NCBI RefSeq assembly: GCF_013782625.1
Contig: NZ_CP056199.1
Location: forward strand, 62,001-126,000
Source: Enterobacter sp. RHBSTW-00994
Lineage (GTDB): Bacteria > Pseudomonadota > Gammaproteobacteria > Enterobacterales > Enterobacteriaceae
Direction of reading: 5' to 3'
DNA length: 64,000 bases
Shown: piece by piece, positions 1,221 through 18,283 of the stretch
Layout: each line of letters begins with the position of its first letter
Position numbering within the stretch: the stretch's first letter is position 1
Made by a program: the position numbers and the translations under genes
The notes under the pieces: model-generated
Told to the model about the DNA's origin: nothing
The model's input: only the letters and a program-made list of their open reading frames with translations
Database searches by the model: none

Positions 1221-1745
1221 ATGAGAACATTAGCGATTGTTTCCCACCCGTATGCCGCGCAGTCTCGCATTATCAATGCACTGCAGCAGACCGCCGAAAG
1301 TACGGATAACGTCATCGTCAGAAATCTGGAGTCGCTGTATGGCAACGCGGTGAGTGCCATTGATGTGGCGGAAGAACAAGCAGCTTATGAAGGGGTAGAC
1401 CGCGTGGTGTTTATCTATCCTACCCACTGGTTCAACCTGACGCCGATGCTAAAAGGTTATCTCAATGAAGTGTGGCAGTACGGCTGGGCGTTTGGTGCAG
1501 GCGGCGATGCGCTGAAGGGGAAGGCGTTAAGGGTGGTGACGTCAGCCGGGGCGAGTGAGCACACCTATTCCCATGCCGGGCTGATCCAAAGCTCTATGGA
1601 TGAAGTATTAAGCCCAATGAAAGCCAGCGCGCTGTATGTGGGAATGGCCTGGCTGCCACCGCTGGCATTTTATGAAGTGGCGGCGGCGAATCGTGACCAT
1701 GTACCGCAGTTCCAGCAGGCGCTGGCTGCGGCACTTGCACAGTGA
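1221..1745 (+). CDS. NAD(P)H-dependent oxidoreductase, flavodoxin-like fold
   Basis: A 174-residue member of the MdaB/KefF/NQO1-like flavodoxin-fold family, which use FMN or FAD to reduce quinones and related electrophiles with NAD(P)H. The N-terminus LAIVSHPYAAQSRIINAL is the phosphate-binding strand-loop-helix for the flavin. The segment DRVVFIYPTHWFNLTPMLKGYL is the family hallmark (the Y-P-x-x-W-F-x-x-P loop over the isoalloxazine ring), followed by W-AFG at the active site. A GGAGAAG Shine-Dalgarno sits 5-6 nt before the ATG. It probably detoxifies a quinone or electrophile sensed by the divergent LysR regulator; the substrate is not readable. Confidence 0.9.
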   Translation: MRTLAIVSHPYAAQSRIINALQQTAESTDNVIVRNLESLYGNAVSAIDVAEEQAAYEGVDRVVFIYPTHWFNLTPMLKGYLNEVWQYGWAFGAGGDALKGKALRVVTSAGASEHTYSHAGLIQSSMDEVLSPMKASALYVGMAWLPPLAFYEVAAANRDHVPQFQQALAAALAQ

Positions 1746-1751
1746 CGGAGG

Positions 1752-2714
1752 TTAGCTGATGTCGGCAACCGATGCGCGGGCAACCAGTCGGCCGGTAAAT
1801 GTGCGGCCCTCGGGGACAAAAACGGAGTGGCCGTCGATAAGCGCCTTGATCCGTTGAACGCAGTGATCCAGGAGCTGATCCACCGGATAGGCAATGCAGG
1901 TTAGCGGCGGATAGAGCAGGGAGGCCATTGGTGAATCTTCCAGGCTCATCAGCGATACTTCCTGCGGGATCGCGACGTTAAACTCACGCAGTAACCGCAT
2001 GGCTTCGGCGGCATAGCTATCACGTTTGGCGATGATCGCCGTATATTTCGTAAAGCTATTAATCAACGTCAGCAGCGCCTGCTCGATATTGTTGTTTGCC
2101 ATCACCAGTAACTGGCGGTTGAAGGGCAGAGAGTAGTTCTGTAGCACGCTGCGATACCCTTCCAGCATCTGCTTACTGGCTACGTCATTTTCCGTTTCCA
2201 TCAGCAGGGCAATGTTGCGATGACCTTTTCCCAGCACGTATCGACAGGCACTTTCGGTGGCAAAAGCGTAGTTATAGCCCTGGTTAGCGCTGCCCGCTGT
2301 TGAAAAATCATCAAAGGCGATCACGTTGCTGGCAACGTCGCTGCCGGGTTTGCCCAGCGTGACGACAGCAACACACTGATGCTGAAGGCTTTCGATAGCG
2401 GCCTTTTGTTCGGTGGCATCGTTAACGTATTGAATAAGAAGTGATTTATTCAGTGATTTGACCGCGAGGGACAGTTGCGGCAACAGTGCTGCGCTGAAGT
2501 CCGCCTCTTGAGCAGGGAGAACCATGCCGACCTGGTTTGACGTATTGCTCGCCAGATTTTGCGCAGCAAAGCTGGGACGGTAGTTTAGCTCTTCTACCGC
2601 CCGTAATACGGCCTCACGGCTCTCTTCGCGAACGCCACGCGTCCCGGTCAGTACACGCGAAACGGTGGCCCGGGAAACATTGGCTAACTTTGAAACATCA
2701 TCAATGGTTGGCAT
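1752..2714 (-). CDS. LacI-family repressor of the mannan/PTS locus
   Basis: 320 residues. Residues 1-50 are a textbook LacI/GalR DNA-binding domain: IDDVSKLANVSRATVSRVLT followed by a hinge with RPSFAAQNLA. The remainder is the periplasmic-binding-like sugar domain. It is the last gene of the minus-strand cluster (PTS IIB, IIC, IIA, ROK kinase, then this gene, 54 nt apart). A 14-bp palindrome with the central CG typical of LacI/GalR operators occurs at 5778 and again at 7310, so I infer that this protein binds both. No such site lies directly upstream of this gene, so it would be autoregulated through the operon promoter. The effector is unknown, plausibly a mannobiose-like or phospho-sugar inducer. 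Confidence 0.92.
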   Translation of the reverse strand: MPTIDDVSKLANVSRATVSRVLTGTRGVREESREAVLRAVEELNYRPSFAAQNLASNTSNQVGMVLPAQEADFSAALLPQLSLAVKSLNKSLLIQYVNDATEQKAAIESLQHQCVAVVTLGKPGSDVASNVIAFDDFSTAGSANQGYNYAFATESACRYVLGKGHRNIALLMETENDVASKQMLEGYRSVLQNYSLPFNRQLLVMANNNIEQALLTLINSFTKYTAIIAKRDSYAAEAMRLLREFNVAIPQEVSLMSLEDSPMASLLYPPLTCIAYPVDQLLDHCVQRIKALIDGHSVFVPEGRTFTGRLVARASVADIS

Positions 2715-2768
2715 GGTGTCGTCTGTATTACGGTTTTCCCCCTATAGTAACATAAATGCGGGCAGGAT

Positions 2769-3683
2769 TTAGTCACCAGTGACCCGCACGGGCAACCAGG
2801 CTGCACCGCGAACGCCACTGGCATCGCCGAATTGCGCTTTTGCAATTTGGGTCCGACAGGTGGGCGAAAAAATGTACTTTTCAACTACTGGCGGGAGATC
2901 CCGGTACAGGCTTTCCACGTTCGATAACCCTCCGCCCAGCACGATGACGTGAGGATCGATCGTATTGATAACACCCGCCAGACTGCGGGCAAAAGCGTCG
3001 ATAAAGTGGTGATAATGCGTCACTGCGCGGGGATCGCCTTCGTTGGCGGCAGCGATTATCATCTCCGGCGTGTATTGCGTGCCATGCCGCGCATTGAAAC
3101 GACGGCTGAAACCCGTGCCAGAGATGAAGCTTTCAATGCAGTTTTCATGCTGGCAATAACACCTTTCCACGGAACCATCCTGCTCCGTGTGCCAGCCGGG
3201 AAGCGGGTTATGTCCCCATTCACCGGCAATGGCATTGGGCCCACTGAGTAACTGCCCCTTTACCACAACGCCGCCGCCACAGCCTGTGCCGACAATGACG
3301 CCAAATACCGTTCCGTAACCCTTACCAGCGCCATCAACGGCTTCGGATAAGGTAAAACAGTCAGCATCATTGGCCAGAAATACGGGCTGATTGAGCAATA
3401 CTGTCAGGTCGCGTTTTAAATTCTCGCCGTTGAGCACCAGGCAATTGCAGTTTTTGATTAGTCCACTTTGTGGATCGATCGCCCCCGGCAGGCCGATACC
3501 GACGGTGAAATCATACTGCGTTGCCGTGCGGATGCCGGTGATCATCTCCATCAGGTTATCCAGAAACCCCTGATAGTGAGCTTTACAGGTCGGACGGCGT
3601 TCACGCAGTACAACAGTTCCGGCATCGTCCAGCAGGACGGCCTCCATTTTTGTGCCGCCAATGTCCAGGCCAAGATGAAACAT
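2769..3683 (-). CDS. ROK-family sugar kinase (fructokinase/mannokinase type)
   Basis: 304 residues starting at the ATG at 3683, chosen because GGGAG lies just upstream and the protein then begins FHLGLDIGGTKMEAVLLDD, the ROK phosphate loop. Other landmarks are LANDADCFTLSEAVDGAG, VGTGCGGGVV, GEWGHNPLPG, the zinc/ROK signature C-Y-C-x4-C-I-E-S-F-I-S-G-T-G, and DPHVIVLGGGLSN. It resembles E. coli Mak (fructokinase) more than NagK. Such enzymes phosphorylate free fructose, mannose or glucose with ATP in the cytoplasm. Its position matches gmuE in the B. subtilis glucomannan operon, so I infer that it phosphorylates the hexose released by the GH1 enzyme. The exact sugar is uncertain. Confidence 0.9.
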   Translation of the reverse strand: MFHLGLDIGGTKMEAVLLDDAGTVVLRERRPTCKAHYQGFLDNLMEMITGIRTATQYDFTVGIGLPGAIDPQSGLIKNCNCLVLNGENLKRDLTVLLNQPVFLANDADCFTLSEAVDGAGKGYGTVFGVIVGTGCGGGVVVKGQLLSGPNAIAGEWGHNPLPGWHTEQDGSVERCYCQHENCIESFISGTGFSRRFNARHGTQYTPEMIIAAANEGDPRAVTHYHHFIDAFARSLAGVINTIDPHVIVLGGGLSNVESLYRDLPPVVEKYIFSPTCRTQIAKAQFGDASGVRGAAWLPVRVTGD

Positions 3684-3737
3684 AGTGCTTCTCCCGAAAA
3701 AGAAGAGAGGCAATGCCTCTCTTAAGTCACACAATAC

Positions 3738-4043
3738 TCAATGACGGGTTCTGTAAATATCGAGAAGCTCAGTCACCAGCTCTTTGGCGAGGATGGAGGT
3801 CATCAGGTGATCCTGGGCGTGCACCATCACCAGCGTCATTTTGGTTTTTCCTTCGCCCTCATCGGCCTCAATAAGCTGAGTTTGCACCAGATGCGCTTCC
3901 CGCGCGAAGTGCTGCGCCTGCTTCATTTTTTCATCGGCATCGGCAAAATCCCCGGCTTTGGCGCTGTGCAACGCTTCGAAACACAGGCTACGGGACTGCC
4001 CGGCATTGATGATGATGCCCATGATTTGCTCTTCTAATTCCAT
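3738..4043 (-). CDS. PTS lactose/cellobiose-type IIA component
   Basis: A 101-residue all-helical IIA protein of the Lac family (LacF/ChbA/GmuA type). The phosphorylated histidine lies in MVHAQDHLMTSI near residue 75, and the first helix carries IIINAGQSRSLCFEAL with the usual AGxARS-like pattern. It receives phosphate from HPr and passes it to IIB. The ATG is preceded by AGAGGA. It lies between the IIC and ROK kinase genes in the minus-strand operon. This is the only IIA gene in the cluster, so it would have to serve both IIC proteins. Confidence 0.94.
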   Translation of the reverse strand: MELEEQIMGIIINAGQSRSLCFEALHSAKAGDFADADEKMKQAQHFAREAHLVQTQLIEADEGEGKTKMTLVMVHAQDHLMTSILAKELVTELLDIYRTRH

Positions 4044-4066
4044 AACATCCTCTGACTCTTAACGAT

Positions 4067-5392
4067 TTATGCGGTTTCAGATTGACCAACGCGCGCGGTT
4101 GGCTTTTTCTCGACAGTTTCCTGATCAAGTAGCTGTTTCTCATACGCTTTAAGGAATGGGTAATACATGATAATGGCCGTTACCATGCAGATAAGGCACA
4201 TAATGACCGGGCTAAAGGCCCAGTTCGCAGCCCACGATGCACCAATAGGAGCTGGGGTAGTCCACGGCGTCATGGAGACCACGCGCGCCACCAGACCAAA
4301 ATCCAGTGCGAACCAGGCCAGCGCGGCGTTAACCATTGGAACCAATACAAAGGGGAGGAAAAACAGCGGGTTCATAATCACTGGCGCACCGAACAAAATC
4401 GGTTCGTTGATGTTAAACAGGCCCGGCACGACCCCCATGCGGCCAATAGTGCGCAGATGAACGGCTTTGCTGCGCATCAGCAACAGGGCTAGCGGTAAGG
4501 TCGACCCCACGCCGCCAATCAGCAGGTAGTGATCCCAGAAACCCTGTACATAAATGTGCGGGATTGCGGTTCCTGCCGCCATTGCGGCCTGGTTCACGGA
4601 CAGGTTTGCCATCCAGAATGGGTTCATGATGCCGGTGACAATCAGCGCCCCGTGGATACCCGCAAACCACAGGATCTGGCAAACCAGCACCGAAAGCAGA
4701 ACGGCGGGTAAGGTATCGGACGCGGCAACCAGCGGCTTCACCAGCGACATAATGGCTTCCGGGATGATCATCCCAAGCTGTGCTTCAATAAACAGGTTGA
4801 GTGGATGGAGGGTCAGAACCACTGCCAGCACCGGAATTAAAATTTCGAATGAGCGGGCTACACCGGTCGGCACTTCAGGCGGCAGGCGGATGGTAATGTT
4901 ATTGCGCCGCAGGAAGGCATACAGTTCGGTGGTGTAAATCGACACCAGCAGTGCGGTGAAAATCCCTTGTCCTGAGAAATAGGCGGTCGACACCATGCCG
5001 TCTTTGAGAGGGGCGGCAACCAGCAAAAAGCCCATCAATGAAAGCATGCCCGACGTCAGCGGATCTAGGCCATGATGACGCGCCAGGCTGGCGGCTACGC
5101 CGACGGAGATGAAAAGAGTCATGACTCCCATGCTGAAGTTAAACGGCAGCATCAGGTTTTCACGATGGTCTAACGAAAACTGCAGCCAGGCACGGGCGAA
5201 GCCCCACCGGGTATCCGGTGCGAAGGGGGGGAAAATAAACACCAGCATAAACGAGCCGACAATCATAAACGGCAGGGCAAGAATAAAGCCGTCACGGATC
5301 GACGTGACATATTTTTGCTGGCCGACAGCGCCAGCCATAGGCGTGATTTTGCTCTCTATCACGCTGATTAATTTAGAGTACAGAGCGCTCAT
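4067..5392 (-). CDS. PTS cellobiose/oligo-beta-mannoside-type IIC permease
   Basis: A 441-residue membrane permease of the Lac (CelB/ChbC/GmuC) PTS family with about ten hydrophobic segments. Recognisable landmarks are RDGFILALPFMIVGSFMLVF near the N-terminus, RLPPEVPTGVARSFEILIPV, WFAGIHGALIVTGIMNPFW in the substrate-binding half, and FNINEPILFGAPVIMNPL, which contains the conserved NEP-G motif. It imports a beta-linked disaccharide while the partner IIB phosphorylates it. It is co-transcribed with IIB (11-nt gap) and IIA. The 424-aa paralogue at 5898 shares the same motifs. Substrate specificity cannot be read from sequence alone; mannobiose or cellobiose-like sugars are inferred from context. 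Confidence 0.93.
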   Translation of the reverse strand: MSALYSKLISVIESKITPMAGAVGQQKYVTSIRDGFILALPFMIVGSFMLVFIFPPFAPDTRWGFARAWLQFSLDHRENLMLPFNFSMGVMTLFISVGVAASLARHHGLDPLTSGMLSLMGFLLVAAPLKDGMVSTAYFSGQGIFTALLVSIYTTELYAFLRRNNITIRLPPEVPTGVARSFEILIPVLAVVLTLHPLNLFIEAQLGMIIPEAIMSLVKPLVAASDTLPAVLLSVLVCQILWFAGIHGALIVTGIMNPFWMANLSVNQAAMAAGTAIPHIYVQGFWDHYLLIGGVGSTLPLALLLMRSKAVHLRTIGRMGVVPGLFNINEPILFGAPVIMNPLFFLPFVLVPMVNAALAWFALDFGLVARVVSMTPWTTPAPIGASWAANWAFSPVIMCLICMVTAIIMYYPFLKAYEKQLLDQETVEKKPTARVGQSETA

Positions 5393-5403
5393 GTTGATGT
5401 CCT

Positions 5404-5718
5404 TTAGTTATTATTTTCAATAAGAGACAGGGCATAATCCAGGACGGCCCCACCCTTTTGCATGCCGTAATCCATCATGTTGATGGGCTCGACCTTGATC
5501 CCGTAAGGGGCGGCTTTTTGCTGCAAATCTTTTTGCATGTACTTCACCTGGGGGCCCAGCAGCACCACCTGATAATTCCCTACCTGTTGTTCAAATTCCG
5601 CGACGCCAAAGGCTTTGATATCAACGGCCAGACCGCGCTTATCCGCCTCTTCCACCATCTTTTTCACCAGAAGGCTGGTGGACATGCCAGCGGAACAACA
5701 AAGCATGATTTTTTTCAT
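5404..5718 (-). CDS. PTS lactose/cellobiose-type IIB component
   Basis: 104 residues from the ATG at 5718, which follows GGGAG; an upstream in-frame start at 5742 lacks such a site. The N-terminus KKIMLCCSAGMSTSLLVKKM is the Lac-family IIB phosphate loop, with the phospho-cysteine at residue 8. The rest is the typical small alpha/beta fold, with VVLLGPQVKYM and a C-terminal MDYGMQKG. It takes phosphate from IIA and passes it to the incoming sugar bound by IIC. It is the first gene of the minus-strand operon, so its promoter must lie in the divergent control region 5719-5897. Confidence 0.95.
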   Translation of the reverse strand: MKKIMLCCSAGMSTSLLVKKMVEEADKRGLAVDIKAFGVAEFEQQVGNYQVVLLGPQVKYMQKDLQQKAAPYGIKVEPINMMDYGMQKGGAVLDYALSLIENNN

Positions 5719-5777
5719 GAAAAACTCCCGACTGAGTAACAACGATGAGCGGAATATAGTCTTTACGGATTAATTAT

Positions 5778-5791
5778 GGAAAGCGCTTTCC
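5778..5791. promoter_or_regulatory. LacI-type operator, copy 1
   Basis: The perfect 14-bp palindrome GGAAAGCGCTTTCC with a central CG, the form usual for LacI/GalR repressors. It sits in the gap between the divergent IIB and second IIC genes. The same palindrome, with the same 5' ATTAT and 3' GTA-ATGGA flanks, recurs at 7310. The shared flanks suggest a single regulator, most likely the LacI protein encoded at 1752-2714 (inference). Confidence 0.8.
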
Positions 5792-5809
5792 GTATATGGA
5801 TACGTTAAA

Positions 5810-5825
5810 TGTGAGCATGATCACC
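5810..5825. promoter_or_regulatory. CRP-like site between the divergent PTS genes
   Basis: TGTGA-GCATGA-TCACC matches the CRP consensus TGTGA-N6-TCACA at nine of ten core positions. It lies 18 bp from the LacI-type palindrome. Together they suggest cAMP-CRP activation combined with specific repression, as expected for a sugar-use locus. Confidence 0.6.
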
Positions 5826-5897
5826 ACCTGAAGGCTTTTACTTTATCGGGATGTAGGCGATGATCCCCAAACTTCCCTGTCCTCTATAGGTCCCGCC

Positions 5898-7172
5898 ATG
5901 AGCATTCAGTTTATGAATGTTGCTGTGACACTGATTGAGCAGCGTGTTACCCCTTTTGCCAACCTGCTCACCCGCAGCCAGCACATCACGGCGATGCGGG
6001 ATAGCTTTGCGCTGGCGATGCCGTTCGTTATCGTCGGTAGCCTGATGGTTCCCCTTATTTTTCCGCCGTTTACCGTGGATACCTATGCGTGGTATGGCGC
6101 GGCATATCAGGCTATTCGGCCCATGCTTCTGCCGACGTTTGAGCTGACGATTGGGCTGGTGGCACTGATCATCGCGTTTGGTGCGAGCGCCAGTCTGGGT
6201 AAGCAGTATCAACTCCCTGAGCGCCTCTCTGGCCTGACGGGATGCCTGTCTTTTCTGGTCTTTATTGGTTTTAAAGAGACGGATACCAGTAATATTTTTC
6301 TGGGGGGGATTGGGATATTTAGCGCTTTAATATCAAGCTTCTACAGTATTGAGGTGATGCGGTTCTTTTACCGGCGTGGATGGTGTATTCGCCTGCCGGA
6401 AGAGGTTCCGGTGATGACGCGCAACGGTTTTCAGCTTCTGATGCCCCTGCTCGCCATCATGCTCTCCATTACTCTGGTCAACGCGCTGCTGAAGCAGAAC
6501 ACCGGCATGATTTTACCGGACATGATCAGCGAAGCTTTTCGTCCACTGATCATCGCCTCTGATACGCTTACCGCACTGATTATTACCATTGTTATCTGTA
6601 ACTTACTGTGGTTTGTCGGCATTCATGGCGCATTGATTGTCACCGGCATTATGAACCCGTTCTGGATGACCTATCTGTTTGAAAACCAGCAGGCGCTGGC
6701 GAATAACATCACGCCGCTACCACATATCTATCTGCAAGGATTCTGGGATTTTTACCTGCTCATTGGCGGGATTGGTTCAACGCTGCCGCTGATCTTTATG
6801 GCCCTGCGCAGCCGTTCCCGGCAACTGAAAAGTGTCAGTAAAATTGGCTTAATACCGTCGCTGTTTAACATTAATGAACCGGTACTTTTTGGTTTTCCGA
6901 TCATACTTAACCCGCTGTTTTTAATTCCGTTTATCTGTGTTCCGGTGATTAATGCCTGCCTTGCCTGGTACTTGACTCACCTCGGTGTGCTGGACCGCGC
7001 AGTGGCGATGTTGCCATGGTCGATGCCCGCGCCGCTGGGGGCCGCCTGGTCCGCAAACGGGAGCTGGAAAAACATGTTTATGTGCCTGTTTGCCTTCTTC
7101 AATGCCTGGATGATCTACCGTCCGTTCTTCAGGGTGTATGAACGGCAACTGGTGGAGGCAGAAAGCAAATAA
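5898..7172 (+). CDS. Second PTS cellobiose-type IIC permease
   Basis: A 424-residue paralogue of the IIC at 4067-5392, transcribed in the opposite direction. It keeps the same landmarks: MRDSFALAMPFVIVGSLMVP, RLPEEVPVMTRNGFQLLMPL, WFVGIHGALIVTGIMNPFWM and FNINEPVLFGFPIILNPL. No IIA or IIB gene accompanies it, so it presumably uses the IIA and IIB encoded on the other strand. The ribosome binding site (AGG eight bases before the ATG) is weak. A terminator follows at 7201. It may import a second disaccharide or linkage type released from the same polymer, for example a mixed glucosyl-mannose; this is inference. Confidence 0.92.
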   Translation: MSIQFMNVAVTLIEQRVTPFANLLTRSQHITAMRDSFALAMPFVIVGSLMVPLIFPPFTVDTYAWYGAAYQAIRPMLLPTFELTIGLVALIIAFGASASLGKQYQLPERLSGLTGCLSFLVFIGFKETDTSNIFLGGIGIFSALISSFYSIEVMRFFYRRGWCIRLPEEVPVMTRNGFQLLMPLLAIMLSITLVNALLKQNTGMILPDMISEAFRPLIIASDTLTALIITIVICNLLWFVGIHGALIVTGIMNPFWMTYLFENQQALANNITPLPHIYLQGFWDFYLLIGGIGSTLPLIFMALRSRSRQLKSVSKIGLIPSLFNINEPVLFGFPIILNPLFLIPFICVPVINACLAWYLTHLGVLDRAVAMLPWSMPAPLGAAWSANGSWKNMFMCLFAFFNAWMIYRPFFRVYERQLVEAESK

Positions 7173-7200
7173 TTCTCCGTTTTCCTCATTTATTTTCCCG

Positions 7201-7227
7201 CCAGCGTGCGTAAGCCGCTGGTTTTTT
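7201..7227 (+). terminator. Rho-independent terminator after second IIC
   Basis: The stem CCAGCG/CGCTGG with a nine-base loop is followed by six T. It separates the second IIC gene from the porin transcription unit, which therefore needs its own promoter. Confidence 0.75.
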
Positions 7228-7246
7228 ACTCTCCCGCCAATTTAAG

Positions 7247-7262
7247 TGTGATTTTCGTCACG
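7247..7262. promoter_or_regulatory. CRP-like site upstream of the porin gene
   Basis: TGTGA-TTTTCG-TCACG matches the CRP consensus at nine of ten core positions. It lies 48 bp before the second LacI-type palindrome and 151 bp before the porin start, a fair position for an activator site. Confidence 0.6.
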
Positions 7263-7309
7263 TTTTGTTTTTCCTTATTTTTGATTATGTGATTTAAACC
7301 GGCAATTAT

Positions 7310-7323
7310 GGAAAGCGCTTTCC
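7310..7323. promoter_or_regulatory. LacI-type operator, copy 2
   Basis: The palindrome GGAAAGCGCTTTCC is identical to that at 5778 and has near-identical flanks. It lies 90 bp before the porin ATG and downstream of a CRP-like site, so it would put the porin-GH5-GH1-isomerase unit under the same repressor as the PTS genes. Confidence 0.8.
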
Positions 7324-7413
7324 GTAAATGGATGTACATTTCCGATTTTGATCCGTAGATTCCCGATTGCGCCATAAGACGCTCTTTCACTCAGAAAAAG
7401 AAAAAGGAAATCT

Positions 7414-8748
7414 ATGAACAGGTTGAACCGATTAATACCTCTGGCCCTTCTCATCAATGCGGCTGCTTGCGGGATCGCGCAGGCGGAGCAGTACGACTTC
7501 AAACTGCATGGCTACATGCGCTCAGGCATTCTGGCGAACTCTGACGGCAACCGGGCAGATTCGGTCGGGCTGATGCCGGATGGCAAATGGCGTCTTGGCA
7601 ACGAAGAAGACACCAAAATCGAGCTGATCCCCCAGGTGATGCTGAAATCTGATGCGGGTCCGGTGGCGAAAATTCAGGCCAACATCACCCATCAGAGCAA
7701 ATGTACCTCCGACTGGAACTGTCAGGACGATGACGGCAAAGAGGTGCAGTTCCGCGAAGGGTATGTAGAGCTGAGCAATCTGGACTTTGCGCCGGATGTC
7801 ACCTTCTGGGGCGGGAAACGCTATAGCAGCTCGAACACCTCTAGCCACCAGTTCGACTGGGAGTACATCCAGTACAACGGTACGGGCGGTGGTTTTGACA
7901 ACCTCGACCTCGGCTTCGCCCGCTTTGATGCCGGTGTCTATGCCTTTTCACCTACGGACGAAACCAAAGCGTTCCCGGTGGATAAAGGCGATCAGGGCTA
8001 CCCGGATGATTACTCTCTCAACCTGTGGCTGAAGAAAATTGGCGGCACGGGGTTCGATCTGGAGCTGATTGGCCACCACATGAACCGCAATGAAAAGCAT
8101 CCGACGTCCGCCGAGAAAGGCTATGGCGTTACCGGTGTCTACAACTTTGACGGATTCTGGGGACTGACGGGCGGCTATTCCAAACTGGTGATGCAGTATG
8201 GCCGTGGCCTGGCGGCGGGTGACTCGCTGGGCAAAAACGGCTGGGGTTGGGCAAACCTGGAAGATACCCAATCCTGGCGTGTGATCCTCGACAGCATGGC
8301 GTCACTGGGTAGCGTGGATGTGTCGACATTTGCCTACTACCAGAAAGACAAAAACTACCGTTGGTGGAGCAGCGATGCTGACGGCTGGGGACGCTCAAGC
8401 TGGGTGGCGGGGATCCGCCCGTATCACCAGATCACCAAAAACTTCGCGATGCAGTATGAAGTGGGCTACGAATACCTCGACGATGAAAACTACAAAGGGG
8501 TCAACGGGAAAGGCAAAGGCGGCCTGACGAAAGTTACCATCGCGCCGACGCTGACCTTTGATTCCGGGTACTGGAATCGTCCACAGTTGCGCTTCTTCGT
8601 CACTTACGCGAAGTGGGATAAAGGTGTTTCTGATGCACTGGACGGTAACTATAACTGGGATACCAACACGATTTCCGCCGGTGGTTATAGCCGCAGTGGT
8701 GAGACCGACACAGTGAATTTCGGCGTTCAGGCTGAAGTGTGGTTCTAA
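7414..8748 (+). CDS. LamB-type carbohydrate porin
   Basis: 444 residues. A Sec signal peptide is visible, with cleavage after IAQA (near residue 24). The mature part begins EQYDFKLHGYMRSGILANS, as in maltoporin, and contains WGGKRYSSS and FDWEYIQYNGTGGGFDNLDLG, typical of the LamB barrel. The protein ends in FGVQAEVWF with the terminal aromatic residue needed for outer-membrane assembly. LamB-family trimers pass oligosaccharides along a greasy slide of aromatic residues. It is closer in layout to LamB/BglH-type porins than to general porins. It is the first gene of a unit with the GH5 (12-nt gap). I infer uptake of manno- or gluco-oligosaccharides. Confidence 0.93.
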   Translation: MNRLNRLIPLALLINAAACGIAQAEQYDFKLHGYMRSGILANSDGNRADSVGLMPDGKWRLGNEEDTKIELIPQVMLKSDAGPVAKIQANITHQSKCTSDWNCQDDDGKEVQFREGYVELSNLDFAPDVTFWGGKRYSSSNTSSHQFDWEYIQYNGTGGGFDNLDLGFARFDAGVYAFSPTDETKAFPVDKGDQGYPDDYSLNLWLKKIGGTGFDLELIGHHMNRNEKHPTSAEKGYGVTGVYNFDGFWGLTGGYSKLVMQYGRGLAAGDSLGKNGWGWANLEDTQSWRVILDSMASLGSVDVSTFAYYQKDKNYRWWSSDADGWGRSSWVAGIRPYHQITKNFAMQYEVGYEYLDDENYKGVNGKGKGGLTKVTIAPTLTFDSGYWNRPQLRFFVTYAKWDKGVSDALDGNYNWDTNTISAGGYSRSGETDTVNFGVQAEVWF

Positions 8749-8760
8749 GGAGAGAGCAAA

Positions 8761-10956
8761 ATGATTCAACCTATCAGAAACGTTCTGCTGGCCTCTCTGC
8801 TCTCCGCGCTGGGTTGCGCGGGGGCGATGGCAGCGGAACAGTCGCATTTCGAACACTTTATTACGCGTGACGGCACGCAGTTAATGGATGGCAAAACGGT
8901 ATTCCGCTTTGCGGGTATCCACGCGCCGGAACTGCATCGTATTGAGGATGATGCGCGGGGTGTCTGCAAAGCCGACCCGCGTGGCTGGGGACAATACTTC
9001 AAATGGCCAACGGCGGAAGAGCAGGCGAACTGGATCAACGCCATGGTTGCCACAGGCGCAAAAGCTCAGCGCGTGTATGTGCTTTCCGTTCAGCAGGAGA
9101 ACGATGCCGCCTGCGAACGTGAAACGCATATCCTTGCCCCGGAAAGCCCGGATGGCATGCCGCGCCTGAATGAAAAAGCGATGAAGGTCTACGACAACAT
9201 GATCGCCGAAGCGGATAAACAGGGATTGCGCCTGATCCTGCCGTTTATCGATCACTGGTGGTGGTGGGGGGGACGTGAACAGCTCGCGGCTTTCTACCAT
9301 GAAAAACCGGAAGATTTTTACCGTACGGACAGTAAAACCTATAAGGCCTATCTGGATGTGATTCGCCAGGTGATCACCCGCACCAACTCGGTGACGGGCC
9401 GTTCTTACGCCGACGAAAAGGCAATCATGGCCTGGGAGACGGGGAATGAGCTGGAAGATACCAACGCGGCGTTCCTGAAAGAGACCGCGGCCTGGATCCG
9501 GAAATGGGCCCCGCATCAGCTGATTGTCGACGGGACGTATAAGAAGATTAATGACTTTGCATTAAACGATCCTAACGTTGATATCGTCAGCAATCACTAC
9601 TACACCAACGCCGACAACAACCACCCGGACCAGGTGCGTAAAGACCTGGCAGCCATCGGTGGCAAGAAGGCCTATCTGGTGGGGGAATTTGGTCTGCTCG
9701 ATCACACGCAGCTCAACGACATTATGCAGTCGATTGTTCACAGCGAGGTCAATGGCGCGCAGGCGGTCGGTGGTTTTATCTGGGGTTTCCGCGGGCATCG
9801 CCATGACGGCGGGTTCTACTGGCATAAAGAGTATACCGGTCATTACAGCTATCACTTGCCAGGGTTCCCGGTAGAAGGGAAAGCCAACCAGGAGATGGAG
9901 GTTGTGGATCTGGTGAGGAAGGCAGCGGCACAAATGGCGGGTCTGAAACAGACGCCACCGCTGCCGGTTCCTGATGCGCCGGTACTGCGTGCGACCGATT
10001 CACCGTTCGCCATCAACTGGATGGGCGCTGCCGTCGGGCGTAGCTATGACGTTGAACGAGCCACATCTGAGAAGGGTCCATGGACGCGGGTGGGAGAGAA
10101 CATCTCCGACGGAGTGAATGAGTGGAACCCGGCCACCATGGATCTGTTCCGCGATGATTACCGCAGCCTGCAACGAGGTGAGACTTACTACTACCGAGTG
10201 CTGGCCAAAAACGAAAGCGGCGTGTCTCAACCCTCCAACGTGATCGCCGTGAAACACACGCAACAGAACCAGGCTCCTGCCGTCACTCTGGGGGATGCGA
10301 TGGTGACTTCTCTGGACAAAGGTGTGTTGTTACAGGCGACCTGGACAGACGATAACCTGCCGGATCGCGAGGTGAACGTGGGCTGGACTCACGGGGATAA
10401 CCCGAACGTGCATTTCTGTGATGCCACGAAAACCCACACCCGCGCATGGTTCTCCGCACCGGGTCAGTACGCCCTGACCTTTACCGCCGACGATGGTCTG
10501 CTGAAAGGCAGCAAAACCGTCAATGTCACGGTTAACAAGGTGCAAGGGAAAGTGCCTGCGGATTACTGCAACTTTGCCGGCGGTGTGCTGGATGTTCACA
10601 AAGGTAAGTTGCACGCGGTGAAAAGCGCGGAAAACGTCCTTGCCATTGGTGATGATGGCTTCCTCGGCCCGTTTGCCAGCGAAGGGGATAAGGTGAGCTG
10701 GCAGGTGAATGTGCCGTGGGAAGGGCGGTATACCCTGCACGTCACGTTTAACGGTAAATGGGGTGGAAAGAAAAACTCTTTCGTAGTGAACGGTGGTGCG
10801 CCGATTGCCATTGAATTCCCTCAGACCGATGAAAAAGGCCAGCAGATGGCGATTCCGGTGACGCTGAAGGCCGGGAAAAACAGCATCGACTTTGGTCGTT
10901 TTGCCGGTGACTGGGGCTACATGTTCATCAAATCCATCGAAGTAACTGCAGAGTAG
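8761..10956 (+). CDS. Secreted multidomain GH5 glycanase, probable endo-beta-mannanase
   Basis: 731 residues. A signal peptide ends near AMA (residues 22-24). Residues ~30-400 are a GH5 TIM barrel: the acid/base Glu is E230 in MAWETGNELED and the nucleophile is E309 in YLVGEFGL, with a WWWWGG segment near 167-171 suited to sugar stacking. Residues ~405-500 look like a fibronectin type III domain and ~505-595 like a PKD/Ig-like domain. About 605-731 resemble a CBM35-type carbohydrate-binding module. The neighbours (PTS, phospho-glycosidase, mannose-6-phosphate isomerase) and the resemblance to mannanases suggest beta-1,4-mannan or glucomannan as substrate; a cellulase or mixed-glucanase activity is possible. 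No route across the outer membrane is visible in the protein. Confidence 0.88.
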   Translation: MIQPIRNVLLASLLSALGCAGAMAAEQSHFEHFITRDGTQLMDGKTVFRFAGIHAPELHRIEDDARGVCKADPRGWGQYFKWPTAEEQANWINAMVATGAKAQRVYVLSVQQENDAACERETHILAPESPDGMPRLNEKAMKVYDNMIAEADKQGLRLILPFIDHWWWWGGREQLAAFYHEKPEDFYRTDSKTYKAYLDVIRQVITRTNSVTGRSYADEKAIMAWETGNELEDTNAAFLKETAAWIRKWAPHQLIVDGTYKKINDFALNDPNVDIVSNHYYTNADNNHPDQVRKDLAAIGGKKAYLVGEFGLLDHTQLNDIMQSIVHSEVNGAQAVGGFIWGFRGHRHDGGFYWHKEYTGHYSYHLPGFPVEGKANQEMEVVDLVRKAAAQMAGLKQTPPLPVPDAPVLRATDSPFAINWMGAAVGRSYDVERATSEKGPWTRVGENISDGVNEWNPATMDLFRDDYRSLQRGETYYYRVLAKNESGVSQPSNVIAVKHTQQNQAPAVTLGDAMVTSLDKGVLLQATWTDDNLPDREVNVGWTHGDNPNVHFCDATKTHTRAWFSAPGQYALTFTADDGLLKGSKTVNVTVNKVQGKVPADYCNFAGGVLDVHKGKLHAVKSAENVLAIGDDGFLGPFASEGDKVSWQVNVPWEGRYTLHVTFNGKWGGKKNSFVVNGGAPIAIEFPQTDEKGQQMAIPVTLKAGKNSIDFGRFAGDWGYMFIKSIEVTAE

Positions 10957-10962
10957 TGATTT

Positions 10963-10992
10963 TGGCCGCGTCCATTGGGCGCGGTTTTTTTT
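10963..10992 (+). terminator. Hairpin with T-run between GH5 and GH1 genes
   Basis: CCGCG-nine-base loop-CGCGG is followed by eight T. It looks like an intrinsic terminator inside the presumed operon, with the GH1 ribosome binding site starting ten bases later. Partial read-through would give less intracellular GH1 than secreted GH5; otherwise GH1 has its own promoter, which I could not see. Confidence 0.6.
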
Positions 10993-11007
10993 ATTAACGG
11001 AGGCGTT

Positions 11008-12417
11008 ATGACCCGGTATTCATTCCCCGACGGTTTTTTATGGGGTGCAGCAGCATCTGGCCCACAAACGGAAGGCACAGCGGGGAAACCGCACTGCTCC
11101 ATTTGGGACAGCTGGTTTTCCGAACAACCCGAGCGTTTTTATCAGCAAACCGGTCCGCAGCGTGTTTGCGAGACCTACACCAGGTATCAAGACGATGTCG
11201 CCCTGATGAAACAGACAGGGTTTAACTCGTTCAGAACCTCGATTCAGTGGTCACGCCTGATTGACGATTTTGAAACGGGCGAGCCGAACGCCGATGCCGT
11301 TCGTTTCTATCACGCTTATCTCGACGAAATGATCGCTAACGGCATCGAGCCGATGATCAATCTTTATCACTTTGATATGCCTGAGGTCTTGCAGAAGAAG
11401 TATGGCGGTTTTGAATCAGCACATGTGGCTGAGCTGTTTTCCCGCTTCGCGCGTACGGCCTTTACGCTCTTCGGTCACAAGGTGAAGTACTGGATCACCT
11501 TCAACGAACCGATTGTTCCGGTAGAAGGCGGGTATCTGTATGACTTCCATTATCCGTGTAAACAGGACGGTAAGCTGGCGGCGCAGGTCGCTTTTAACAT
11601 TATGCTGGCGCACGCAAAAGCAGTGCAGGTGTTTCGCGAACTCATGGGGAGCGGTGAAATTGGTGTGGTGCTGAACCTGACACCGACCTACACGCGCAGT
11701 GATTCAGCCGAAGATAAAAAGGCAGCATGGTATGCCGACCTGCTGTTTAACCGCAGTTTCCTTGATCCGCTGGTGAAACATCAGTTCCCCAAAGCGTTGT
11801 GTGAGCTGCTGGCGTTTCATCATTGTCTGCCTGACACCACCCCGGAAGATGTCCGTCTGATTACCGATTCGAGAATCGATTTTCTTGGCGTGAACTACTA
11901 CGTGCCGCGGCGTGTCCAGGCGCGTGAGTCCGCGTATACGCTCGATTACTTCTCCCCGGAGTACTACTTCGAAAACTACGTCGACCCGAACGGTCGCTTT
12001 AACCCTTATCGGGATAATAATGAGATCCTGCCGGTGGCAGTTTACGATATTGCCCGCAATATCCGCGACAATTACGGCAATATTAAGTGGTATCTCGCCG
12101 AAATTGGCATTGCGATGGACCTGGAATCGGAAGGTCCGGTGCAGGCCGATGGTGTGATTGATGACGGGTTCCGCATTGGGTTGATGGAGGAGCATCTGGT
12201 GCAGCTTCACCATGCCATTCGCGATGGCGCGAACTGTTTTGGCGTTCACCAGTGGACGTTTATCGACAACTGGTCGTGGATTAACGCGTTTAAACGTCGC
12301 TACGGATTTTATCGCCTGGATCTCGAAACGGGCGAGCGGCAGATCAAGCGCAACGCGCTGTGGTTCCGGGAGTTGGCCTTAAGTAATCAGTTTTCCACTG
12401 AGGAGCGCCCATCGTGA
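11008..12417 (+). CDS. GH1 family phospho-beta-glycosidase (6-phospho-beta-glucosidase/mannosidase)
   Basis: 469 residues from the ATG at 11008, which follows AACGGAGG; an earlier in-frame start at 10975 lies in the terminator. Residues 4-23 give the GH1 start FPDGFLWGAAASGPQTEG. The acid/base Glu is E167 in TFNEP. The nucleophile region reads YLAEIGIA with E365, where most GH1 enzymes have TENG or SENG. Near residue 429, K-R-R-Y-G-F-Y keeps the Lys and Tyr that bind the 6-phosphate in phospho-glycosidases. It should split the phosphorylated disaccharide made by the PTS. Position and type match GmuD of B. subtilis. The stop overlaps the start of the isomerase gene. Confidence 0.9.
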   Translation: MTRYSFPDGFLWGAAASGPQTEGTAGKPHCSIWDSWFSEQPERFYQQTGPQRVCETYTRYQDDVALMKQTGFNSFRTSIQWSRLIDDFETGEPNADAVRFYHAYLDEMIANGIEPMINLYHFDMPEVLQKKYGGFESAHVAELFSRFARTAFTLFGHKVKYWITFNEPIVPVEGGYLYDFHYPCKQDGKLAAQVAFNIMLAHAKAVQVFRELMGSGEIGVVLNLTPTYTRSDSAEDKKAAWYADLLFNRSFLDPLVKHQFPKALCELLAFHHCLPDTTPEDVRLITDSRIDFLGVNYYVPRRVQARESAYTLDYFSPEYYFENYVDPNGRFNPYRDNNEILPVAVYDIARNIRDNYGNIKWYLAEIGIAMDLESEGPVQADGVIDDGFRIGLMEEHLVQLHHAIRDGANCFGVHQWTFIDNWSWINAFKRRYGFYRLDLETGERQIKRNALWFRELALSNQFSTEERPS

Positions 12418-13595
12418 GCCAGACCTGTTTTTACCCGCTTACCAATGTGGTGAAAAACTATCCCTGGGGAAGCCGGCATTCGCTTAATCAGCGCTTCAAC
12501 GTTCTGAACCCGGACGATCAGCCGCAGGCCGAGCTATGGATGGGTGTCCACCCTGCGGGTGTTTCCCATGTGAAGGTTGCTCAGGAGCTGATGGCTCTGT
12601 CTGATTTGCTGGCCAAAGAGCCTGCGATGATGCTGGGCGAGGCAACGTATCAGCGTTTTAACGACTTGCCGTTTTTGCTAAAAATCCTTGCCGCCGGGCG
12701 CGCGTTGTCGATTCAGGTTCACCCGACCAAAGCCCAGGCAGAATGCGGCTTTGCGCGCGCACAGCAGGCGAACGAGGGGGAGATGCCGGACTATAACGAC
12801 GCGAACCATAAACCGGAGCTGGTCTACGCCATCACCCCATTTGTGGCGATGAACGGTTTTCGTGATACGAACACCATCGCCGCTAACCTGAGTGCTCTGG
12901 ATATCCCCGTGCTCAATACCCTTGCTGCCGGACTGCTTGCACAGCCCGATGGTGACGGGTTACGTGCTTTTTTCATTGCGATGATGCAGCTTACGCCAGC
13001 CACCAAAATGCAGGCCATTGCGCAGGTGATCGCGCGGGGAGAGGATCTTTACGGCGAGGAGACAGGGGCGATTTTCAGGCGCTTACAGCATGACTATCCG
13101 AATGATACAGGCGTACTTGCGCCGCTATTCCTCAACTGTATTACCCTGCAACCCGGTGAAGCGATGTTCCTTTATCCCGGAACGCTGCATGCGTATGTTC
13201 ACGGTACGGCGATTGAGGTAATGGCCAGTTCCGACAACGTGCTACGCGCCGGACTCACGCCAAAGAAAATCAACCTGGATGAGCTGGTTCAATGCACCAC
13301 GTTCACCCCAACAGCCGCTGGCTTGCTCTGTATGTTGCCGGAACCGCACGCCGCAGAAGCACGCTACCCCATTCCGGTTGATGATTTCCGGTTCAGCATT
13401 TTCACCGGGGCAGATCATCAGCCGATGACGACGACCAGCGCCGAGATTGTGCTGGTGATTGAAGGCGATGCGATGCTGAGCCATATCAGCGGTGAAACCC
13501 TGACGCTGAGTGCCGGGGCATCGGTGTTTATTCCTGCCTCCACGAGACAATGGCAGCTCACCACTACCGGAAAAGTGTGCCGCGTCTCATCGTAA
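12414..13595 (+). CDS. manA: Mannose-6-phosphate isomerase, class I
   Basis: 393 residues starting with GTG at 12414, overlapping the GH1 stop by four bases (GTGA), a sign of translational coupling; GAGGAGC lies just upstream. Class I isomerase features are YPWGSRHSL near residue 16, the zinc ligands in LSIQVHPTK (Gln, His), HKPELVYAI (Glu) and GTLHAYVHGTAIEVMASSDN (His), and NVLRAGLTPK. The enzyme interconverts mannose-6-phosphate and fructose-6-phosphate. As it sits in the sugar operon it is probably a locus-specific second copy, like GmuF of B. subtilis, rather than the housekeeping ManA; the chromosomal copy would lie elsewhere. Confidence 0.92.
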   Translation: MSQTCFYPLTNVVKNYPWGSRHSLNQRFNVLNPDDQPQAELWMGVHPAGVSHVKVAQELMALSDLLAKEPAMMLGEATYQRFNDLPFLLKILAAGRALSIQVHPTKAQAECGFARAQQANEGEMPDYNDANHKPELVYAITPFVAMNGFRDTNTIAANLSALDIPVLNTLAAGLLAQPDGDGLRAFFIAMMQLTPATKMQAIAQVIARGEDLYGEETGAIFRRLQHDYPNDTGVLAPLFLNCITLQPGEAMFLYPGTLHAYVHGTAIEVMASSDNVLRAGLTPKKINLDELVQCTTFTPTAAGLLCMLPEPHAAEARYPIPVDDFRFSIFTGADHQPMTTTSAEIVLVIEGDAMLSHISGETLTLSAGASVFIPASTRQWQLTTTGKVCRVSS

Positions 13596-13605
13596 TGTCA
13601 CCCCA

Positions 13606-13625
13606 GAGGGGGCTTATGCCCCCTC
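13606..13625 (+). terminator. Hairpin after the isomerase gene
   Basis: The perfect 8-bp stem GAGGGGGC/GCCCCCTC has a TTAT loop. It lies 10 nt past the isomerase stop and marks the end of the sugar operon, although no T-run follows, so termination strength is uncertain. Confidence 0.5.
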
Positions 13626-13705
13626 CGCATTTCGTGCTTTCTTCGTAGGGTAATGTTGCGGCGTCTGGATAGACTTCCGTTAATGGCCGAACGGGGGACA
13701 ACGAT

Positions 13706-14704
13706 ATGAACTGGCAGCCTTTTCGCGGTAACGCACCGGCAACGATGACGATTTACAGTGCTTCATTTCCCGATGTCAGCGATCAGTGGCCGATGAAAGA
13801 CGACGTCACCCGCGAGATCAACGCGATAGACAAGGCGCTGAAAGCGGACCTCGCGCTGCTGCCTCCTCTTATGGATTACGAAGAGGGCGGCCAGGCTGTA
13901 CTGATTTCCCAGCATATTTATTCTGAACAGGCATACCGTACCCGCCCGGCGCTGGCCGCATGGCGTGCCCGGCTGGTTCCCACGGCGCTGGCGATCTTTG
14001 TGGTGCAAAATCCACTGGAAGATAAGCTCCCCGAAGGCACGCCGATGGACAAGGAAAGCCGTCAGTGGTTTATCCATGCTAACGACGCCATCGGCGTGCG
14101 CTCCCGCGCGCGGGTTCTGGCGACACTGGTGGACAAGTACATCCACAACGACATTGAAAGTGACTGGATAAGCCTGGCAAGTGGCGCAGCTATTCCTGTA
14201 CTGGAGGCGTTGCGAACCGCCAAACTGGATGGGCAGAACGTGCATTTGTCGCTGGTGGATAATGACCCCGTTGCGCTGCGCTGGGCTGAAACCATGGCCG
14301 CGCAGGAGGGATTGAATGTCGGAGAACAACTGACTCTGCTCAGGCGCGACCTGATTCAGACGTTTATCCGCAGTGAAGATCTTCTGCTGGAGCTGGGCGA
14401 ACATCAGGCTGAACTGGTGGATGCGCTGGGGATTTTTGAATACTTCAACGATGCAGATGCGGTGATTTTTTTGCAGCGTGCCCTGCGGCTGGTGAAACCC
14501 GGCGGGGCGGTGATTGTGTCGAATATGCTGACCAGCAGTCCGCAAATCGACTTCACCCTGCGTTGTATCGGCTGGTCGCATATTTTCCCCCGCTCATTAG
14601 AGCAGCTACAGGCTATCCATCTCGCGGCCGGAGTGCCGGTGGAAAATGTTACGGTGATTGTGCCGAAGGATGGGGTATATGCGGTGATGGAAATGCGAAT
14701 TTGA
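13706..14704 (+). CDS. Class I SAM-dependent methyltransferase-like protein
   Basis: 332 residues. The C-terminal half (~150-332) has a Rossmann methyltransferase pattern: SDWISLASGAAIPVLEAL (motif I, with a degenerate glycine loop), VHLSLVDNDPVALRWAE (the acidic residue of motif II), then ELVDALGIFEYFND and LKPGG-like LVKPGGAVIVSNM. The N-terminal 130 residues are not recognised. The substrate is unknown. It is separated from the sugar operon by a hairpin and 110 bp and is probably its own unit. It has no obvious partner gene. Confidence 0.75.
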   Translation: MNWQPFRGNAPATMTIYSASFPDVSDQWPMKDDVTREINAIDKALKADLALLPPLMDYEEGGQAVLISQHIYSEQAYRTRPALAAWRARLVPTALAIFVVQNPLEDKLPEGTPMDKESRQWFIHANDAIGVRSRARVLATLVDKYIHNDIESDWISLASGAAIPVLEALRTAKLDGQNVHLSLVDNDPVALRWAETMAAQEGLNVGEQLTLLRRDLIQTFIRSEDLLLELGEHQAELVDALGIFEYFNDADAVIFLQRALRLVKPGGAVIVSNMLTSSPQIDFTLRCIGWSHIFPRSLEQLQAIHLAAGVPVENVTVIVPKDGVYAVMEMRI

Positions 14705-18188: not shown

Positions 18189-18283
18189 TGGCGGAAGATC
18201 ACAGGAGTCGAACCTGCCCGGGAACGCTGGCGTCCCCAACTGGATTTGAAGTCCAGCCACCTCACCGGAGATGACGATCTTCC
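18189..18283 (-). tRNA. selC: tRNA-Sec (UCA)
   Basis: A 95-nt selenocysteine tRNA on the minus strand. The 8-bp acceptor GGAAGATC/GATCTTCC, the anticodon loop CTTCAAA with TCA, the long variable arm and an encoded CCA end are all visible. It differs from E. coli selC at only a few paired positions. It inserts selenocysteine at UGA codons, as in formate dehydrogenases. Its 3' end faces the AT-rich islet, and selC is a known hotspot for integrating islands. Confidence 0.98.

Follow-up and report, generated by a model that had tools for sequence, protein, structure and literature searches.

A candidate mannan utilization locus in Enterobacter sp. RHBSTW-00994

We analysed a 64,000-nucleotide stretch of DNA from Enterobacter sp. 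RHBSTW-00994, comprising bases 62001-126000 of its single-contig 4.89-Mb genome and referred to here as the window. Ten adjacent genes were found at positions 1752-13595. Based on Pfam and NCBIfam scans, they encode IIA, IIB and two IIC subunits of a phosphotransferase system (PTS), a ROK-family kinase, a LacI-family repressor, a LamB-type porin, a mannanase of glycoside hydrolase family GH5 with a CBM35 module, a GH1 glycosidase and a mannose-6-phosphate isomerase (Table 1). An earlier note on this DNA, made from the letters alone, had named these genes and taken them for a beta-mannan and glucomannan utilization locus. All ten genes were recovered and each domain call holds, with a caveat for GH5 in Pfam that is taken up below. 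IIB, IIC1, IIA, ROK and LacI form a minus-strand unit, and LamB, GH5, GH1 and the isomerase a plus-strand unit. IIC2 stands alone in divergent orientation and is probably a transcription unit of its own. The start of the ROK gene is most likely at 3683 (ATG); the frame used in the family scans was 12 bases longer. Neither an alpha-galactosidase gene nor an export gene is among the ten. As argued below, we consider it highly likely that the block is a self-contained, horizontally moving cassette for the use of beta-mannan and glucomannan.

A genome-contig scan returned 35 relatives of the window GH5. For the gene-by-gene comparison 42 loci were used (L005-L043, 39 loci, together with G299, G308 and G319). 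Both IIC2 and GH5 are held by 27 of them, a biased sample since it was drawn from GH5-anchored searches. The frame-broken locus L042 is counted among the 27, but was kept out of the identity medians. L011, L029-L041 and L043 are without IIC2 and so fall outside this count; L040 and L041 are short contigs, where absence is weakly informative. All 27 loci also hold LacI, IIA, IIC1, IIB, LamB and GH1, which makes eight core genes, and ROK and isomerase occur at the frequencies given in Table 1. A collinear arrangement was seen in 26 of the 27, the exception being the rearranged locus of Aeromonas simiae. The carriers span Klebsiella, Kluyvera, Kosakonia and Yersinia to Photobacterium and Aeromonas. 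Because the set recurs across other genera, it is not a product of chance. A reduced copy was seen in Enterobacter sp. JUb54 (L011), where only porin, GH5 and isomerase are left and the IICs, IIA, IIB, ROK, LacI and GH1 were not found. At 14 GH5 loci from Alteromonadaceae, Neiella, Colwellia, Paraglaciecola, Cellvibrio and similar bacteria, no PTS genes of the set were present within at most 10 kb on each side.

Table 1. Features of the cassette, with positions in the window (counts refer to the compared loci)
Feature	Position	Strand	Basis
LacI-family repressor	1752-2714	-	Pfam LacI and Peripla_BP_3; in 27/27 loci
ROK-family hexose kinase	2769-3683	-	Pfam, NCBIfam; in 24/27 loci
Terminator-like hairpin, IIA/ROK gap	3703-3723	-	in 10/23 gaps
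PTS IIA, Lac/Chb family, VHAQDH motif	3738-4043	-	Pfam, NCBIfam
PTS IIC1, LacE/CelB family	4067-5392	-	Pfam, NCBIfam
PTS IIB, Lac/Chb family, active-site region CCSAGMST	5404-5718	-	Pfam, NCBIfam
Predicted operator O1 GGAAAGCGCTTTCC, between divergent IIB and IIC2	5778-5791		genome scan and conservation
CRP-like box TGTGA-N6-TCACC, 32 bp from O1 start	5810-5825		28/29 loci
PTS IIC2 (second IIC)	5898-7172	+	Pfam, NCBIfam
CRP-like box TGTGA-N6-TCACG, 63 bp before O2 start	7247-7262		20/29 loci
Predicted operator O2 GGAAAGCGCTTTCC, upstream of porin	7310-7323		genome scan and conservation
LamB-type oligosaccharide porin	7414-8748	+	Pfam LamB 295 bits; in 27/27 loci
GH5 enzyme, predicted endo-beta-mannanase, signal peptide, Fn3-like middle part, C-terminal CBM35	8761-10956	+	Pfam (CBM35), PDB sequence searches
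Terminator-like hairpin and U-tract, GH5/GH1 gap	10964-10992	+	covariation in 15 aligned loci
GH1 enzyme, putative 6-phospho-beta-glycosidase	11008-12417	+	Pfam, NCBIfam; PDB 5foo best match
Class I mannose-6-phosphate isomerase, second genome copy	12414-13595	+	Pfam, NCBIfam; in 15/27 loci

The mannanase and its published counterpart

The window mannanase has 731 amino acids, and its CBM35 was placed by Pfam at residues 613-729. A PDB search with the single sequence returned mannanases (best E 2.6e-12), with CBM35 and titin/Fn3-type matches further along the protein. When a profile of 15 relatives was used instead, ten distinct chains were matched at E <= 1e-10. Nine of these carry the name mannanase or mannosidase; the remaining one, 1uuq, is entered as mannosyl-oligosaccharide glucosidase, MAN5A. 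In the alignment with 9m20 the acid/base NE motif lies in the main stretch, and the nucleophile GEFG motif appears only in a weak second stretch. Acid/base E230 and nucleophile E309 are kept in 28 of 29 mannanase copies, one being unreadable. The GH5 call of the earlier note thus stands by the PDB sequence relatives and fails by the Pfam GH5 model.

A beta-mannanase of the same length, Man1E, has been described from 'Enterobacter aerogenes' B19 (PMC7362650). According to the available text of that report, the 2196-bp gene encodes 731 amino acids with a signal peptide at residues 1-24, E230, E309, H279, W341, seven conserved glycines and a CBM35. At these reported positions, identical residues were found in the window mannanase and four relatives, and the start printed in the Man1E primer (reading MAFPIR) agrees with the E. 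mori protein L007. As both length and residues at the reported positions are the same, Man1E is very probably the ortholog of the window mannanase. Man1E is reported to degrade locust bean gum, konjac and guar to manno-oligosaccharides and to be inactive on xylan, starch and carboxymethylcellulose (PMC7362650). These data contradict the case, considered earlier, of an enzyme acting on cellulose only. The authors of that report assign Man1E to GH1 from a CDD hit. The relatives of its probable ortholog, and the residues that its authors align with GH5 mannanases, rather point to GH5. The words 'operon', 'cluster' and 'genome' do not occur in the main text (PMC7362650), and the enzyme is treated there alone, with no locus.

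An export route was considered as well. The genome holds a type II secretion system (T2SS) cluster at 1.525-1.536 Mb, in which Pfam models identify C, D, E, F, G, J, K, L, M plus a prepilin peptidase (the scan did not extend to H and I). Across 40 genomes of the genus, gspD is present in 36, namely in all four mannanase carriers and in 32 of the 36 non-carriers. Presence of the T2SS was for this reason rejected as support for export of the window mannanase in particular. The system would be an available route with no specific link to the enzyme.

Uptake proteins and cytoplasmic enzymes

IIA, IIB, IIC1 and IIC2 all belong to the Lac/Chb family of the PTS, and the active-site His, Cys and NxEP motif of Lac-family systems are all present. 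His75 and His79 of IIA are kept in 25 of 26 copies (one unreadable) and Cys7 and Cys8 of IIB in 28 of 28. The Glu of the NINEP motif is kept in 26/28 copies of IIC1 and 27/28 of IIC2, the remaining rows being unreadable or frame-broken. With the motif intact in 27 of the 28 copies, IIC2 as a decayed paralog was rejected. At a threshold of 0.001, the cellobiose-specific IIC 3qnq was the sole PDB match for IIC1 and also for IIC2. The two share 44% identity. Relatives of IIC2 with at least 76% identity occur in only four of the 40 genus genomes (window genome counted), exactly the mannanase carriers; no other IIC matched in the 40 genomes at E <= 1e-60 exceeds 49% identity to it. Among plasmid records, four of 129 IIC2 matches at E <= 1e-60 exceed 60% identity, and these records are exactly those that hold the full-length mannanase. 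In the sets searched, IIC2 is specific to the cassette, and as such this second IIC is new beyond the earlier note.

An IIC 44-49% identical to IIC2 is held by 38 of the 40 genus genomes. It is presumably the ortholog of the IIC in a paralogous locus on the window chromosome (L065:1716-7850, genome ~40.2-46.3 kb; also L004). This locus shares with the cassette an IIC, an IIA (57% identical), a GH1 (50%), a LacI regulator and a LamB-like porin. Reading of its open reading frames of at least 180 amino acids, with no dedicated search made, brought up neither mannanase nor isomerase, and neither ROK nor a second IIC. At 24.1-25.2 kb of the genome (L064:2119-3207) lies a gene for a 362-amino-acid protein with a signal-like N-terminus and a Pfam Cellulase match, and no NCBIfam match. 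It may be another polysaccharide enzyme.

The best PDB match of the cassette GH1 was 5foo, named 6-phospho-beta-D-glycosidase. Of the catalytic Glu pair, E167 is kept in 27 of 28 copies (one unreadable) and E365 in all 28, as are S423, K429 and Y432. These three were compared with the Ser/Lys/Tyr phosphate site of LacG. The pattern is the same as in the PDB 6-phospho-glycosidases 5foo and 4b3k, with the Lys one residue earlier than in LacG. We propose that the enzyme may be a 6-phospho-beta-mannosidase/glucosidase. The best NCBIfam model for the ROK protein was fructokinase, with 348 bits and under the 443-bit cut-off; it is proposed as a putative mannokinase. A second manA lies elsewhere in the genome, at 2.075 Mb. 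Isomerase (median identity 53%, 14 copies) and ROK (66%, 23 copies) are the least conserved genes, which is in line with an optional role where the host owns manA.

Operators and CRP-like boxes

The palindrome GGAAAGCGCTTTCC has exactly two sites in the 4.89-Mb genome, one in each cassette promoter region (Table 1). As a control, the reversed sequence was scanned and gave no site genome-wide. Among the 40 genus genomes, GGAAAGCGCTTTCC was found in the four mannanase carriers only, with seven sites, each beside the cassette. The looser palindrome GAAANCGNTTTC has at least two sites in 25 of 26 cassette loci (window, L005-L028 and L042), and one in L017. In 14 loci without the cassette, matches to it were seen in two (5 and 1), none with GG and CC ends. 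The sites are palindromic with a central CG and confined to the locus, as would suit operators of a LacI-family local regulon, here predicted by sequence. Shared operators had already been claimed; they are present, and their restriction to the cassette makes the case stronger than claimed. LacI is probably autoregulated, since it is the last gene of the minus-strand operon.

CRP-like boxes accompany both sites. The O1-side box, with one mismatch, keeps its distance after the O1 start in all scanned loci except the rearranged Aeromonas simiae locus (L023). The O2-side box, with at most one mismatch, is placed as in Table 1 or, in one more locus, at 64 bp before the O2 start. In the reduced copy of Enterobacter sp. 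JUb54 (L011:8284-8569) both operators are retained, 271 bp apart.

Hairpins within the operons

The GH5/GH1 gap contains a hairpin with a 10-pair stem and a U-tract, terminating just upstream of the GH1 ribosome-binding site. A terminator scan of positions 1700-13800 gave 26 sites, compared with 14.7 (SD 3.9) in shuffles, and this hairpin tops the list in pairs and in G-C pairs. For an alignment, 15 loci were picked from the 26 with a readable GH5/GH1 gap. In these, 96.6% of cells pair, and slid controls gave 31-59%. Both-side changes were found at 4/10 pairs, as many as were reached in 2 of 500 shuffles, counts that are not probabilities because related species are among the 15 loci. L024 has a longer gap and a stem without U-tract; the gap of L025 exceeds the 400-nt limit and lay outside the analysis. 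By a stem-plus-T-run test, conservation of the IIA/ROK hairpin is partial (Table 1; one of the 23 gaps has length 0). The GH5/GH1 hairpin, preserved between genera through compensatory changes and also new beyond the earlier note, may be a partial terminator or a processing site.

Cassette boundaries and carriers

A search for the same gene set across Enterobacteriaceae had been suggested earlier. The mannanase was found in 12 of 295 genomes of the window's family, two of these positives (G028 and G235) being broken or split copies, and in 4 of 40 of the genus, the window genome counted in both; the set is present in other genera too. In E. coli LR-06 (L005, 1092213-1118375) the same ten-gene order lies on an ssrA-adjacent island that also encodes integrase, recombinase, relaxase and ParB-like proteins. 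By megablast, which may miss divergent copies, the GH5 gene has matches in four of 5426 E. coli genomes, K-12 not being named among the four; the island context was seen in LR-06. The same order is carried by an IncFIB plasmid of K. pneumoniae (L006) and by a plasmid of E. mori (L007). The isomerase is missing from the cassette in a 5.37-Mb K. pneumoniae record (L008), flanked by sit-type and hyp/hyc genes, and from the locus in K. pneumoniae ATCC 13883 (L018, 5.28-Mb scaffold).

Similarity to the congener G299 at the DNA level spans window 1783 to 13598, matching the cassette edges. When window 1-30000 was compared with the flanks of G299, G308 and G319, no DNA match was obtained outside the cassette. 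The right-hand neighbour in the window lies ~0.9 Mb away from the cassette in G299 and ~1.2 Mb in G308, and was not found in G319. In the congener G315, a non-carrier of the mannanase, a different 319-amino-acid gene sits between the counterparts of the left (flavodoxin-like, 90%) and right (82%) neighbours. The block is a discrete, horizontally moving cassette. A phage origin was rejected, as megablast matched the part 5404-10956 to none of 50,697 phage records. The name rsmC for the neighbour at 13706-14704 was dropped, with no Pfam or NCBIfam match to back it. A tRNA-Sec gene (selC) is located at window 18189-18283, 4.6 kb past the cassette; selC is a known island site. Three Kluyvera loci (L017, L022 and L028) are without ROK and isomerase. 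Their genes for regulation and transport share 88-94% identity with the window copies and their GH5 only 67-75%, a contrast that suggests exchange of parts within the cassette.

Discussion

The cassette is very probably gmu-like in its logic and differs from the gmu operon of B. subtilis in regulator class, mannanase family, porin, private second IIC and mobility. The repressor GmuR is of the GntR type and the mannanase GmuG belongs to GH26, whereas the cassette has a LacI-family regulator and a GH5-CBM35 enzyme. It further brings a porin of the outer membrane, a second IIC and mobility, and its presumed transcription units, three in number, come with CRP-like boxes. The differences in polymer-cutting enzyme and regulator class and the added porin had been predicted, and domain and PDB searches bear them out (GH5-like, LacI-family and LamB). 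Judged by families, the gmu-type gene set is present in one locus: Lac-family IIA, IIB and IIC, GH1, ROK, isomerase and exported mannanase. Induction by mannobiose or cellobiose and repression by glucose also mark the gmu type, and to these the CRP-like boxes relate only indirectly. The available texts on gmuBACDREFG, which cite Sadaie 2008, give PTS IIB, IIA and IIC, a GH1, a fructokinase-type kinase, an isomerase, an exported mannanase and a local repressor with global carbon control (PMC10766802, PMC3585215, PMC11669640).

Among the matches listed in the open-licence PMC literature, which leaves subscription papers mostly outside its scope, none describes the locus. To that extent the earlier statement that there is no well-described enterobacterial equivalent stands for the locus; it does not stand for the enzyme, published as Man1E (PMC7362650). 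The K. pneumoniae celB virulence locus is a possible equivalent; the available part of PMC12405260 names celABF and leaves mannan unmentioned. That of PMC4052901 (Ravcheev 2014) treats ManR regulators of mannose and mannosides and does not name the cassette locus.

We suggest the following route. The Sec-exported GH5-CBM35 endo-mannanase would cut the polymer, with the activity taken from the probable ortholog, and type II secretion would probably place this step on the cell surface or beyond it. Manno- and glucomanno-oligosaccharides would then enter through the LamB-type porin. IIA and IIB are predicted to serve the two IICs, so that disaccharides would be imported and 6-phosphorylated; the families are established here, and the substrate is putative. 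To judge by its residues and relatives, GH1 would split the 6-phospho-disaccharide into hexose 6-phosphate and free hexose. Free mannose would be phosphorylated by ROK, and mannose 6-phosphate converted to fructose 6-phosphate by the isomerase. The two predicted LacI operators, each with a CRP-like box, would turn on the three units in the presence of mannan fragments and the absence of better sugars. The chitobiose system of E. coli (chbBCARFG, the ChiP porin and a Gsp-exported chitinase) likewise combines an exported endo-enzyme, a specific porin, a Lac-family PTS and a cytoplasmic hydrolase. It differs in polymer, regulators and hydrolase families, and its genes are not in one cassette. As a tentative extension, which we would call possible rather than probable, one IIA/IIB pair may feed two IICs (IIC1 for cellobiose-like sugars or glucosyl-mannose, IIC2 for mannobiose), and the intra-operon hairpins (GH5/GH1, partly IIA/ROK) may act as partial terminators. 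Such an arrangement would combine high output of the polymer-facing outer proteins and the transporters with low output of cytoplasmic enzymes in a transferable Gram-negative mannan cassette.

The role in beta-mannan and glucomannan use is backed by the published assays of the 731-amino-acid probable ortholog, by the gene set and by the locus-private operator. Several observations weigh against it. The activity data stem from Man1E and not from the window organism, and the likeness of the two enzymes is one of length and residue positions, not of percent identity. The Pfam Cellulase model (PF00150, GH5) gave no match to the 8761-10956 protein at 0.001. Isomerase is absent from 12 and ROK from 3 of the 27 loci, the O2-side CRP-like box is missing in 8 of 29 loci scanned, and the distribution of gspD gives no tie between enzyme and export. 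IIC1 shares 71% identity with its counterpart in the paralogous PTS/GH1/LacI/porin locus, ~17 kb upstream on the same chromosome. Mannobiose is a presumed PTS substrate, and the true one may instead be cellobiose or another beta-disaccharide.

The last two points bear on a variant in which the cassette serves mainly glucomannan and cello-oligosaccharides, IIC1 importing cellobiose-like sugars and IIC2 mannobiose, so that mixed glucose-mannose chains are preferred over pure mannan. We rate this variant as possible, short of probable. Besides the kinship of IIC1, it gains from an IIC2 whose close relatives, in the sets searched, all belong to the cassette, and from the reported response of B. 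subtilis gmu to cellobiose and mannobiose (available texts of PMC10766802, PMC3585215 and PMC11669640). The IIC substrates, however, are assigned by conjecture, and the affinity of Man1E was reported to be highest for galactomannan (locust bean gum), not konjac (available text of PMC7362650). An unrelated beta-glycoside or host glycan as the substrate, with the mannanase incidental, would suit the breadth of the PTS, GH1 and porin families. We regard this as very improbable, given that the set includes a mannose-metabolism isomerase and a ROK kinase, that one operator pair flanks the mannanase and PTS units, and that mannanase, close IIC2 relatives and operator co-occur in the same 4/40 genomes and no others.

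The cell might also be a scavenger that lives on the fragments of others and spares the polymer, its mannanase trimming porin-admitted manno-oligosaccharides in the periplasm. MalS, a periplasmic amylase, acts in this way on maltodextrins. By reading, the signal peptide is of a plain Sec type, no export gene is among the ten, presence of the T2SS does not track the cassette and the porin gene adjoins GH5 in 27/27 loci. Nevertheless, a CBM35 on an endo-acting enzyme fits polymer best, a T2SS cluster is available in the genome, and in vitro the probable ortholog is reported to act on locust bean gum, konjac and guar (PMC7362650). We consider a scavenger rather unlikely and favour the cassette as a system that attacks the polymer itself.

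If this is correct, enterobacteria, among them K. pneumoniae and rare E. coli, would gain access by way of a PTS to mannans from the diet and from plants, such as guar, locust bean gum and konjac. This would be of relevance to gut ecology and to feed and food uses of mannan gums. The published enzyme Man1E gains a probable pathway, and its family label is questioned. The cassette itself is compact and naturally transferable, and its predicted operators are private to it.

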